DNA of 25,030 bases. It comes from a virus. Below are positions 1,763 to 15,834 of this stretch, in pieces (position 1 is the first letter of the stretch; each line of letters begins with the position of its first letter). Under the pieces are notes generated by a model that worked only from the letters and a program-made list of their open reading frames with translations, had not been told where the DNA came from and did no database searches. The stretch is taken from IMG/VR virus record IMGVR_UViG_3300025301_000103, positions 1-25,030 of that record; one strand, 5' to 3'. The translations under genes were made by a program, and so were the position numbers.

Positions 1763-1905
1763 TATCCCCTCAGATATTTTAGTAACTGCATGGCCAGTCG
1801 CCAGGCTGCGCCGGTACTTATTTGTTCGTGGAAAAGCTCCTTATTATCCTTGTGTAAAATCAAAAACAACTCGCCTTCAACCTCTCTGAAATTCGGGTAG
1901 ATCAT
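1762..1905 (-). CDS. Small protein of unknown function
   Basis: This 47-residue protein begins MIYPNFREVEGELFLILHK. Its ATG at 1905 overlaps the stop of the transglycosylase gene (ATGA) and its stop overlaps the excisionase start (TAATG), so it is translationally coupled on both sides. A longer frame from 1953 would run 50 bases into the upstream gene and is less likely. The sequence is amphipathic with no motif I recognise. Its place between the DNA-modification genes and xis-int does not reveal its role. Confidence 0.6.
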   Translation of the reverse strand: MIYPNFREVEGELFLILHKDNKELFHEQISTGAAWRLAMQLLKYLRG

Positions 1906-2612
1906 GCGACTAAATCCTGTTGAACTGGCTTCACATTCCAATCGACGGGACACTGGCTTGAGTCAATTTGCCTTGCCAGATATTCGGCCACAGGCAGGGA
2001 TTCAGGCGTTGATTTGGTAACATCCATGTTTTGTTGTTGGCATATACTAGTGCTATCGGCTGACGCAAATGGCCAACGCTTCCCACCCACACTTAACCCT
2101 CTCATCATATGGCACCAAGGCAACGGCCCATTTTTCGCCAAGGCATTGAACGCCATATCAATCCGTCTCTCCCAACGATCAGACCCAATTTGCCAATACT
2201 CACCGCTGGAACCAAAAGCCAGTTTGCCAAATCCTAAATCTGAAAGTTTGAGAAGGTGGTCGATGGATTCCGATAGATGCCAGACAACAGCCGCGCAGTC
2301 TTCACGGTGGGGCCATTCCTTGATTAAGGCTAGATTATCTTCTTCTTCCCCATCAATGACATCAGGGACTACAGCCCAATTAGGATGACCAATATATCCC
2401 TCCACCCAACTATAATATTTATTCCAATCAACTTCTATGTTTTGGGTAAACATACTAAAGGCTCCATTATCAAACATAACAGACTGGCTTATATGCTTGG
2501 CCTGTCGTGCCAGCTTTGGGTACATAAAAGAAACACAAAGATGCTTCCCTGCCATGCCCCAAAATTGATGGTCTGTCCAATTGCCTCCATGATAATGAAT
2601 CACGTTTCGCAT
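1902..2612 (-). CDS. DpdA-like DNA (or tRNA) guanine transglycosylase
   Basis: This 236-residue protein resembles the tRNA-guanine transglycosylase (TGT) superfamily, and by length and context the phage DpdA branch that swaps guanine in DNA for a 7-deazaguanine. Landmarks: FDNGAFS (47-53) aligns with the TGT DSGGFQ motif holding a catalytic Asp (D48); VPDVIDG (82-88); FGSSGEYW (133-140); and RGLSVGG followed by FASADST (171-188), where TGTs have GGLAVGE and then the nucleophilic Asp region (D186 is the candidate). No TGT zinc-site cluster is apparent, as expected for a short DNA-acting form. It overlaps the QueF-like gene upstream by 13 bases. The neighbouring QueF-like enzyme and YhhQ-type transporter strengthen the assignment. 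Substrate (preQ0, preQ1 or a derivative) and target (DNA rather than tRNA) are inferred. Confidence 0.72.
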   Translation of the reverse strand: MRNVIHYHGGNWTDHQFWGMAGKHLCVSFMYPKLARQAKHISQSVMFDNGAFSMFTQNIEVDWNKYYSWVEGYIGHPNWAVVPDVIDGEEEDNLALIKEWPHREDCAAVVWHLSESIDHLLKLSDLGFGKLAFGSSGEYWQIGSDRWERRIDMAFNALAKNGPLPWCHMMRGLSVGGKRWPFASADSTSICQQQNMDVTKSTPESLPVAEYLARQIDSSQCPVDWNVKPVQQDLVA

Positions 2613-2842
2613 ACCACTTTGACGCCGCTATGATAACCCACGGTCTTTACCCGCGCCGGGATTTCTCTCGAAAGAGCCAGTGTGATATTCTCCTGGAAGT
2701 CCTTGTGATTGATTGTTTCCACGGCCATTAAAATATCTTCGACAGGGATGACCTTTGTCGAGGTTATTTCTACCTCATATAAGTCAGCCAGATTATCCAC
2801 TGGGCAACTGGAGTACATTTCCAAACTATATTTTACCAACAT
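2600..2842 (-). CDS. Mini QueF-like (T-fold) 7-deazaguanine-modifying enzyme
   Basis: This 80-residue protein matches the core of QueF, the preQ0 nitrile reductase. SSCPVDNLAD (11-20) corresponds to QueF SLCPVTGQPD, keeping the active-site Cys (C13) and the Asp seven residues later (D20). INHKDFQEN (44-52) corresponds to RNHGDFHED with the Glu kept (E51) and the adjacent His replaced by Gln. IPARVKTVGYHSGVKV matches the strand with QueF's RGG region. The NADPH-binding ESKSxK-type motif is absent (VEDILMA instead). Archaeal QueF-L proteins have the same pattern of loss and amidinate preQ0 to archaeosine. So this may be an amidino- or other nitrile-transforming enzyme rather than a reductase. 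The ATG at 2842 follows a strong GGAGG (2850-2854) at 7-nt spacing, favouring it over the upstream ATG at 2860. Confidence 0.6.
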   Translation of the reverse strand: MLVKYSLEMYSSCPVDNLADLYEVEITSTKVIPVEDILMAVETINHKDFQENITLALSREIPARVKTVGYHSGVKVVCET

Positions 2843-3302
2843 TGGCAAGCCTCCATACAATCAAAGCACCAATCATTTTTGCAACGGTCATCAAGACAAC
2901 CCCAGTTAGGCTAAAGTGTCCGATCATTCCAAGAAACACCGCACTATCCAATGGTGTAGAAACCGCACTTGAAATCAGAACCCGCTCTGCGAAAGGCTTC
3001 TTAGTCCATGTGTAGACACCCCAATCTGCAAACTCAGATACCAGGAACGCCGCCAAGGATGCGACGGCTACAAAAGGGGACGCCATAATATAAGACAAGG
3101 CAGCGGCAACCAGCATGGCTATGATGACTTTGTGCTGAATTTCACGCTGGGCAAAATCCCTAGCTACAAAAATCAACCCGACAACGAGAGACATTGGTGG
3201 AAACATCTCGCCCAAAATTGGGATTAGAGGAACAACTGTGAATCCCCAGTTGACCAAAACAATTAAAACAATGTAACCAAGTGTAAATTTGTAATTTCTC
3301 AA
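2826..3302 (-). CDS. VUT/YhhQ-family queuosine-precursor transporter
   Basis: This 158-residue integral inner-membrane protein has about five or six hydrophobic segments and the conserved marks of the YhhQ (VUT, queuosine precursor transporter) family: ARDFAQRE (47-54), SEFADWGVYTWTKK (89-102) and an Arg followed by SSAVSTPLDSAVF (111-123). Family members import preQ0/preQ1. Next to QueF-like and transglycosylase genes it would supply the base for DNA modification. The start is TTG at 3302, overlapping the previous stop (TTGA) with a GGAG about 10 bases upstream; starting here keeps the first membrane segment. It is shorter than bacterial YhhQ, which is usually over 200 residues. Confidence 0.8.
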   Translation of the reverse strand: MRNYKFTLGYIVLIVLVNWGFTVVPLIPILGEMFPPMSLVVGLIFVARDFAQREIQHKVIIAMLVAAALSYIMASPFVAVASLAAFLVSEFADWGVYTWTKKPFAERVLISSAVSTPLDSAVFLGMIGHFSLTGVVLMTVAKMIGALIVWRLANVGKI

Positions 3303-3541
3303 TGTCCCAACTCCGAATTTAATTTGACCGCCTCGTTAAATGTAAGACAGCGCATTTCCCTTACTGATATGAATTTCTTTCCCAAGTATCCCTTAACGGC
3401 GGCGGCTATCTGCTTAAAGTCCGAGTTGATTCTTTCATGACATATTTCCTTGTCACTATAACTTTGTGTCCATTGCAGCCAGCCCTCTGCTGGGGTATTG
3501 GTGGTCATAACCAGAACAGTAATGAAGAAGATTTTAATCAT
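3299..3541 (-). CDS. Small exported protein of unknown function
   Basis: This 80-residue protein starts MIKIFFITVLVMTTNTPAEG, a plausible signal peptide, followed by a short mature part with two cysteines (EICHE and MRCLTF) that could form a disulphide in the periplasm. The ATG at 3541 shares its first base with the stop of the preceding small membrane gene (TGATG), which supports this start over an earlier one at 3592. Its stop overlaps the transporter's TTG. I do not recognise the family. Coupling to a membrane protein upstream and a transporter downstream suggests envelope-related work, but that is inference. Confidence 0.6.
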   Translation of the reverse strand: MIKIFFITVLVMTTNTPAEGWLQWTQSYSDKEICHERINSDFKQIAAAVKGYLGKKFISVREMRCLTFNEAVKLNSELGH

Positions 3542-3663
3542 CAGAAAATGACCAGCGCGAAATATGTAATGGTGAAAAACAAAAACACACATGCTCCTTC
3601 GAGCAGGGTCTGGATGATTCTGCCCCGGCGTCTGAATCTTAGTAATAATAAATTGTCAATCAT
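3541..3663 (-). CDS. Small single-pass membrane protein
   Basis: A 40-codon reading frame starts MIDNLLLLRFRRRGRI and ends in a hydrophobic stretch (CVFLFFTITYFALVIF), with the basic cluster likely on the cytoplasmic side. Its ATG at 3663 overlaps the DUF1367 stop (ATGA) and its TGA overlaps the next ATG (TGATG). This perfect two-sided coupling, not homology, is the main evidence that it is a gene. It fills what would otherwise be the only gap in this part of the operon. Confidence 0.55.
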   Translation of the reverse strand: MIDNLLLLRFRRRGRIIQTLLEGACVFLFFTITYFALVIF

Positions 3664-14349: not shown

Positions 14350-14630
14350 TGGCTAGAAGATTTGATCTGAAACATGACCCCAAAACGCGGGAGAAAATAC
14401 AGACAAGTCAGCTTGTTAACAGGTTGAATTCATTTGTATTAAATGGAGTCGATCCGAAAACAAAGAAGCCAATCGAAATGAGCAGGGAACAGATAACAGT
14501 TGCGTTGGGTTTATTGAAAAAAACCCTGCCTGATTTATCGAGCGTTGAACTGAAGGGCGACGAAGCCAATCCGTTGAATATGTCGTTTACGGTCAAGTAT
14601 GCAGACAGTGACTCTTCCGAGAGCGTTTGA
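14349..14630 (+). CDS. Putative terminase small subunit
   Basis: This 93-residue protein lies immediately upstream of and overlaps the large terminase (by 32 bases), the usual place of the DNA-recognition subunit. The central MSREQITVALGLLKKTLPDLSSVELKG resembles the small-terminase-like proteins seen before PBSX-type large subunits. It is short for a full TerS with HTH and oligomerisation parts. The assignment is mostly positional. Confidence 0.55.
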   Translation: MARRFDLKHDPKTREKIQTSQLVNRLNSFVLNGVDPKTKKPIEMSREQITVALGLLKKTLPDLSSVELKGDEANPLNMSFTVKYADSDSSESV

Positions 14631-15834
14631 GGATCTAAGACAGCCCGCGAGATATAAAGCATATTATGGGGGTCGAGGTTCGGCCAAGTCTCATTCGTTT
14701 GCGACAGCCTTATTGATGCGTGGGGGTGAGAAGCCTCTACGGATACTATGCGCCCGTGAAGTTCAGTTAAGTATCAAGGATTCCGTTAAGCAGCTACTGG
14801 ACGACAAGATAGCAGACTTTGGTATGGAGTCGTTTTATCAATCGTACCAGAGCGAGATACGGGGCAGGAACGGGACTAACTTTATCTTTGCCGGTCTGGG
14901 TAAGATGACGGCAGACCAGATAAAGAGTATGGAGGGAATTGATATAGCCTGGGTCGAGGAGGCTCAGACAATTTCGGATAACTCGTTGGAGATACTTATC
15001 CCGACGATACGAAAGGACAAGTCGGAGTTGTGGTTCTCATGGAACCCAAGGCATTCGAGCGACCCGATAGACAGGAGATTCAGAGGCGAGGTCGTTCCTG
15101 ACAACTCGGTTATTAAAAAGGTCAACTACCCGGACAATCCGTTTTTCCCCAGGGAACTGGATAGCGAGCGGGAGTTTGACAGGGACAACAACGCAGAACG
15201 CTATGGTCACATCTGGATGGGTGACTATGAGCCAACTGCAATAGGAGCTATATGGGATCGGGCAACCTTGCATTCGGGCAGGACTAAAGAGCCGCCGCTA
15301 ATGAATAGAATAGTGGTCGCTGTAGACCCGGCGGTGAGTGATACGGACGGCTCAGACGAACATGGAATTATAGTCTGTGGTGTAGGCGAGGACAGCAAGG
15401 GTTACGTTCTGGACGACCTATCCAGGCATGGTTCGCCGAAGCAATGGGCGGAACAGACGATAGCGGCTTATGATAAATGGTCTGCGGACGCAATCGTGAT
15501 AGAGGTTAATCAAGGCGGGGATATGGTTCGGCATACGCTTGAGAGCGTGAGGCCGGGAATACGGATAATCGAGGTGCGGGCTACAAGGGGAAAGCATGTT
15601 CGAGCGGAGCCGATCTCGGCTTTGTACCAGTTGGGAAGAATATCACACGCCGGGACGTTCGATAAGTTGGAGGATCAAATGTGCCAGATGACTTCCGCAG
15701 GGTATCAGGGTGATGGTTCGCCCGACAGGGTGGACGCTATGGTATGGGCATTTAGCGAGCTATTCCCCAAGCTCAACAGACAGAAACCTAAAGTAGACCA
15801 CCGCAATAATGCGGGCGGGTCTTGGATGGGATAA
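14599..15834 (+). CDS. terL: Terminase large subunit (packaging ATPase/nuclease)
   Basis: This 411-residue motor protein of headful or pac packaging has an N-terminal ATPase with Walker A GGRGSAKS (24-31) and Walker B IAWVEE (116-121), coupling motif FSWNP, and a C-terminal RNase H-like nuclease with VVAVDPA (D243) and the late Asp in RVDAMVWA. It belongs to the PBSX-like terminase type. ATG 14599 lies inside the small-subunit gene. It feeds the portal encoded next. Confidence 0.95.
   Translation: MQTVTLPRAFEDLRQPARYKAYYGGRGSAKSHSFATALLMRGGEKPLRILCAREVQLSIKDSVKQLLDDKIADFGMESFYQSYQSEIRGRNGTNFIFAGLGKMTADQIKSMEGIDIAWVEEAQTISDNSLEILIPTIRKDKSELWFSWNPRHSSDPIDRRFRGEVVPDNSVIKKVNYPDNPFFPRELDSEREFDRDNNAERYGHIWMGDYEPTAIGAIWDRATLHSGRTKEPPLMNRIVVAVDPAVSDTDGSDEHGIIVCGVGEDSKGYVLDDLSRHGSPKQWAEQTIAAYDKWSADAIVIEVNQGGDMVRHTLESVRPGIRIIEVRATRGKHVRAEPISALYQLGRISHAGTFDKLEDQMCQMTSAGYQGDGSPDRVDAMVWAFSELFPKLNRQKPKVDHRNNAGGSWMG

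Follow-up and report, generated by a model that had tools for sequence, protein, structure and literature searches.

A predicted salvage, insertion and remodelling module for 7-deazaguanine DNA modification in a phage record, with a minimal T-fold protein related to QueF-Like

Three overlapping minus-strand genes in a virus record from IMG/VR (IMGVR_UViG_3300025301_000103) probably form a module that salvages a 7-deazaguanine base, inserts it into DNA, and remodels it there. The window that we analyzed is this entire record of 25,030 bases, which is linear and lacks terminal repeats. The three genes encode a YhhQ-type transporter, a minimal T-fold protein, and a small DpdA-type DNA guanine transglycosylase. 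Our reading of the module is based on homology, fold, invariant catalytic positions, the overlaps between the genes, and the conservation of the set across phages, whereas the chemistry itself is predicted.

In the proposed mechanism, the phage YhhQ would import a 7-deazaguanine as the free base, preQ0 being the most likely one, and the small DpdA would then swap guanines in DNA for the imported base. In a third step, which would be optional in the family, Cys13 of the T-fold protein would attack the 7-cyano group to form a thioimide. Resolution of the thioimide to an amidine by ammonia would yield deoxyarchaeosine (dG+), while water in place of ammonia would yield dADG. We favor dG+ as the specific product only tentatively. 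The altered bases would protect the phage DNA against restriction.

Most of the phages known to carry 7-deazaguanines in their DNA produce the precursor themselves. If the proposed module is real, many phages would instead draw on queuosine precursors in the environment or the host to evade restriction, as hundreds of uncultured phage contigs contain relatives of this DpdA. The reading also provides a function prediction for a PHROG that lacks one (phrog_37496), and it would help to account for the DpdA-only group of phages (Hutinet 2019).

Operon, transporter, and transglycosylase

The genes belong to an early operon on the minus strand that runs, in order, through Erf, YqaJ, two small ORFs, an HTH protein, NinB, and a 97-aa ORF (3299..3592) before it reaches the transporter (2826..3302, minus strand, 158 aa), the T-fold protein (2600..2842, minus strand, 80 aa), and the DpdA (1902..2603, minus strand, 233 aa). 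A 63-aa ORF, an HTH/excisionase-like gene, and an integrase follow downstream in the same operon. The sequence-only reading had placed the module between recombination genes and xis-int, which agrees with this order, and its three overlapping frames and every motif that it quoted are present in the window.

We refined the gene starts as follows. The transporter begins at a TTG within a TTGA overlap with the upstream stop. The T-fold protein most likely begins at ATG 2842, which lies within the 3' end of the transporter and has GGAGG upstream, rather than at TTG 2860. For the DpdA, we preferred GTG 2603 (MIHYHG...) over ATG 2612 because the resulting length matches the homologues and the start forms a GTGA overlap with the T-fold stop. 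The 97-aa ORF, which overlaps the transporter start from upstream, had no match in Pfam and PHROG family searches and is assigned to no family; a homologue occupies the equivalent place in two other loci (L004 and L005). PADLOC returned no match. Elsewhere in the record, we observed an endolysin-like (lysozyme) ORF at the left end (42-446) and a terminase large subunit of the P22/Sf6 type (14599-15834, about 40% identity).

For all three proteins, the similarity to known families lies well above chance. The transporter is of the YhhQ/COG1738 type (Vut_1, DUF165), as originally proposed. It matches Pfam Vut_1 at 1.3e-6 (29.2 bits, over the cut-off of 27.2) and NCBIfam TIGR00697, the queuosine precursor transporter family, at 6.9e-7, which is under that family's cut-off. 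It also shares 45-59% identity with phage proteins, several of which are annotated as preQ0 transporters.

The idea that the third gene encodes a DpdA-like transglycosylase, an assignment made by homology, gained support from profile comparisons. The window protein matches phrog_887 ("queuine tRNA-ribosyltransferase") at 1.2e-39. In hhalign, a profile of 88 relatives aligned over 164 columns (Prob 98, E 2.6e-13) with DpdA1 proteins, among them those of CAjan, 9g, and Dp-1, and the small-DpdA HMM matched the DpdAs of 9g, CAjan, Dp-1, and phiSM at 1e-10 to 1e-13. A relative from a phage with measured DNA is gp032 of Salmonella phage 7-11 (35% identity over 180 aa); in the DNA of 7-11, dADG was found at a very low 50 per million nucleotides (Hutinet 2019, PMC6884629). 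The kinship is drawn through DpdA profiles because a Pfam search gave no TGT match in the window DpdA nor in 50 relatives, and a PDB sequence profile search found nothing. The AlphaFold2 model is a TIM barrel (pLDDT 84.6), for which Foldseek ranked TGT second and weakly (E 7.8e-4), behind tryptophan synthase alpha and among otherwise generic barrels.

Five residues (D48, D84, H112, H168, and D186, numbered from ATG 2612) are invariant in all 88 small DpdAs. D48, in DNGAF, aligns with the Asp of CAjan DSGAFS, and D186, in SADS, with the Asp of SCDSS. In the TGT mechanism, one Asp acts as nucleophile and a second as acid/base; from this mechanism and the alignment, D186 would be the nucleophile and D48 the acid/base of the guanine exchange. 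Another motif that had been singled out, RGLSVGG, is indeed present in the window DpdA, but just its Arg is invariant in the family. H168 aligns with the region of H196 in 9g, a position at which DpdA2 lacks a His (Hutinet 2019, PMC6884629).

These data also bear on the nature of the substrate. It is improbable, in our estimation, that the enzyme acts on host or phage tRNA and aids translation or Q metabolism in infection. tRNA is the ancestral substrate of the superfamily and is reflected in the PHROG name, and TGT was present in 11 of the 11 hosts checked, so Q metabolism exists in those hosts. However, the closest characterized relatives are DpdAs with modified DNA, the protein is far shorter than TGT, and the CxCxxC zinc motif of E. 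coli TGT is absent from 88/88 small DpdAs and 8/8 DpdA1s. We retain DNA as the predicted substrate.

The minimal T-fold protein

The middle gene had been described as QueF-like. By sequence profile and predicted structure, its nearest solved relative is the archaeosine synthase QueF-Like. When a profile of 27 T-fold sequences was compared with the PDB, QueF-Like 5jyx was the sole significant match (E 7.2e-5), with the next at 1.9. The AlphaFold2 model (pLDDT 96.5) has the order strand-strand-helix-helix-strand-strand, and Foldseek placed QueF-Like first (4e-6) and GTP cyclohydrolase I next. The window protein itself had no Pfam match, while 26 of the 27 members matched phrog_37496, whose label reads "unknown function."

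Across 37 homologues, C13, P14, Y22, E35, E51, and H71 are invariant. The family combines the T-fold with the CP nucleophile and the (H/Q)E motif by which QueF-Like is recognized. QueF-Like and QueF both have an acid/base Asp and a Cys to which preQ0 is bound as a thioimide (PMC5485725). In the phage family, the conserved Asp is Asp16, at +3 from the Cys (36/37). The motif CPVxxxxD, quoted earlier as a QueF-like signature, does occur in the window protein, but its Asp at +7, the general-acid position in QueF-Like (Asp28 of QueF-L), is found in just 8 of the 37 and is not a family trait. A late His, in contrast, is present in 37/37, and GTP cyclohydrolase I has a late His at the aligned position.

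Our best reading is that the T-fold protein would act on the preQ0 nitrile as QueF-Like does. We make no claim of strict QueF-Like membership because, though the Cys and (Q/H)E are kept, the conserved Asp is displaced and the late His is of the GTP cyclohydrolase I type. Since the general-acid Asp position of QueF and QueF-L is absent and the late His is conserved, the chemistry may differ. For example, within the same module, the protein could be a nitrile hydratase (or hydrolase), in which water activated by the late His would attack the Cys thioimide to give dADG (or a carboxy base) rather than dG+. We regard this version as somewhat unlikely. It fits the universally conserved late His, the lack of conservation at the Asp28 position, and the dADG of the relative phage 7-11, from which its authors inferred an unknown preQ0-converting protein (PMC6884629). 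On the other hand, 7-11 carries no copy of the T-fold gene, so its dADG has another source, and the nearest solved homologue of the family uses ammonia.

It appears quite unlikely that the T-fold protein is a reductase of the QueF type, turning preQ0 into preQ1 either as the free base or within DNA and leaving dPreQ1 as the end product. A pairwise hhalign comparison shows weak kinship with QueF (E 1.4e-4), and Dp-1 and HVTV-1, which have QueF homologues, contain dPreQ1 (PMC6884629). The unimodular QueF proteins of phages are, however, about twice as long (153-173 aa) as the T-fold protein, its best relatives are QueF-Like and FolE, and Pfam QueF was touched by only 1 of the 27 members, at 0.048. 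The NADPH motif of QueF, E(S/L)K(S/A)hK(Y/W), is not seen in the T-fold family alignment. Weak Pfam matches to GTP cyclohydrolase I (FolE) occurred in 2/27 members. FolE binds zinc through a Cys-His-Cys set (C110, H113, and C181 in E. coli), which is incomplete in this family: the Cys and the late His are kept, and the other two positions are Asp and mostly Gly. We ranked both the QueF reductase and the FolE readings lower because these defining residues are missing, and we continue with action on the preQ0 nitrile as the preferred prediction.

Recurrence of the module and precursor salvage

To describe the gene neighborhood beyond the window, we used the DpdA alignment as bait in IMG/VR, which returned at least 556 relatives; the broad T-fold profile was too variable for seeding such collection scans. 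The bait sets share some contigs, so the neighbor counts that follow are not independent samples: among the best 80 of the at least 556 DpdA relatives, YhhQ was nearby in 73 and the T-fold in 26, in both gene orders; with YhhQ as bait, a small DpdA was present in 72/80 and a T-fold in between in 38/80; and with the T-fold as bait, DpdA adjoined in 14/14. Three of the eight YhhQ loci without a small DpdA were inspected, of which two had a different TGT-like gene and one had a broken T-fold. The TGT-like proteins (L212:2944-3564 and L214:1962-2555) are about 200 aa, follow YhhQ, carry AADNGC(F/Y)A, APDVVG, and then GADSCDGT or GCHSVDGT, and are not matched by the small-DpdA profile.

The membership of the module is variable. 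In a tree of 185 DpdAs, which was a quick tree with some incomplete loci, T-fold presence changed at least 26 times and YhhQ presence at least 16 times, meaning that these accessory genes come and go. Many DpdA relatives lack the T-fold, including the two nearest to the window DpdA (L191 and L004), and Pseudomonas/Burkholderiales prophages pair the T-fold with DpdA but have no YhhQ. Such frequent gain and loss of the T-fold could indicate passenger genes (morons) that are merely co-located, with an inactive or idle DpdA as in mycobacteriophage Orion, which has a DpdA and no measurable 7-deazaguanine in its DNA (PMC6884629). We consider this very improbable, as the pairing was recovered from three baits and in two gene orders, the reading frames overlap, and the catalytic residues are invariant. 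A functional module remains our preferred reading.

Parts of the module are present in the isolates RHph_X2_30 (L003), RHph_N3_2 (L001), Pam5 (L002), Mae-JY30 (L009), and Epa33 (L012), whose defined gene combinations make the prediction directly testable. RHph_X2_30 carries all three genes, RHph_N3_2 and Pam5 have YhhQ with DpdA, and Epa33 and Mae-JY30 have the T-fold with DpdA. The T-fold was absent from the searched parts of 9g, CAjan, Dp-1, HVTV-1, phiSM, phi47:1, and 7-11. An 86-aa gene between the transglycosylase and the transporter of Pam5 was considered as a T-fold candidate and rejected, as it encodes a different protein.

Several other genes were observed in or beside the module. In L084 (2962-3507), a QueC-like PP-loop protein (182 aa, SGGIDS) lies between YhhQ and DpdA, in the usual place of the T-fold, which suggests an exchangeable slot. 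In Caulobacter phage DMCA (L008:4705-5001), a miniature PTPS/QueD-like protein of 98 aa is encoded immediately upstream of the small DpdA. A PAPS-reductase-like PP-loop gene (SGGRTS) adjoins the T-fold/DpdA pair in 18 loci (e.g. L009:2177-3004; also L014-L019, L021-L023, L083, and L089). A C5 cytosine methyltransferase follows DpdA in T-fold phages (L012:4985-7075; also L015, L017, L022, L023, and L026), hinting at stacked DNA modifications. Finally, a protein of 80-86 aa (GG(L/Y)E.RF..ER.DG.PI...RR), with no function assigned, recurs within or beside the module in five loci (L002:6678-6938, L003:4515-4757, L063:4228-4470, L107:5686-5928, and L008:5723-5977).

The sequence-only reading had also proposed that the phage scavenges its precursor, and the gene content agrees with this. 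QueC, PTPS/QueD, QueF, and FolE were not found in the window, a 25-kb linear record that may not be the whole phage genome. Among 36 related phage records, QueC was found in one, and a PTPS-like (QueD) match in a different one, that of DMCA. We also surveyed 67 bacterial genomes that carry a DpdA relative. Host QueC was missing from 6 of the 12 with YhhQ in the locus and from 0 of the 55 without it (Fisher p 9e-6, or 0.008 within Alphaproteobacteria, with relatedness only partly controlled), and QueD was missing in exactly the same six. Since five of these six are MAGs and relatedness is partly controlled, the host pattern is supportive and not conclusive. In Alphaproteobacteria, the majority of the hosts with YhhQ in the locus carry another Vut_1 gene besides the phage copy. 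QueF, too, is missing from some of these hosts, so preQ1 or queuine could be salvaged instead of preQ0. Taken together, precursor salvage fits both the rarity of QueC in the phages and its absence from half of the hosts with YhhQ in the locus.

The most far-reaching form of our proposal is that the T-fold protein, as a relative of QueF-Like, works on DNA and remodels preQ0 once DpdA has inserted it, in phages that depend on salvaged precursor which other microbes release, possibly producing an unseen base, and with a middle position that may hold a T-fold, a QueC-like enzyme, or nothing. We would put its chances at a little below even. If it is true, phrog_37496 would be the first case that we know of in which a T-fold enzyme acts on DNA.

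Comparison with known systems

Neither this linked module with its overlapping genes nor the pairing of the T-fold family with a small DpdA appears to have been described in the papers that we consulted, leaving aside Cui et al. 2023, which reportedly covers DpdA3/4 and DpdL/M/N. DpdA-only phages and phage-borne transporters (QueT in Dp-1) were already known. The new part is the T-fold family.

DpdA phages without biosynthesis genes make up group 3 of an earlier survey, in which YhhQ showed no correlation with any phage group (Hutinet 2019, PMC6884629). Our phages resemble group 3 (e.g. 7-11) in having DpdA without preQ0 biosynthesis genes, but in them the three genes overlap and recur as a set, whereas 7-11, the only measured phage with a small DpdA, carries neither YhhQ nor T-fold. 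Phages of the Dp-1, CAjan, and 9g type likewise have a DpdA homologue with a precursor transporter near it (QueT in Dp-1, YhhQ in CAjan); they differ in encoding FolE, QueD, QueE, and QueC, in a DpdA of about 300 aa, and in the lack of this particular T-fold gene. The window transporter belongs with E. coli YhhQ, the preQ0 transporter of COG1738, by its match above the Pfam Vut_1 cut-off, but the phage form is shorter and falls below the TIGR00697 cut-off, and its transport of preQ0 is a prediction.

For the T-fold protein, the closest comparison is with QueF-Like of P. calidifontis (5jyx/5k0p), which acts on preQ0 already inserted in nucleic acid (PMC5485725). The phage protein shares its T-fold, the CP motif (with the nucleophile Cys21 in QueF-Like), and the HE/QE motif. 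It differs in its length of 80 rather than about 109 aa, in an Asp at +3 rather than +7, in an additional invariant Tyr and late His, and in being linked to DpdA rather than to arcTGT.
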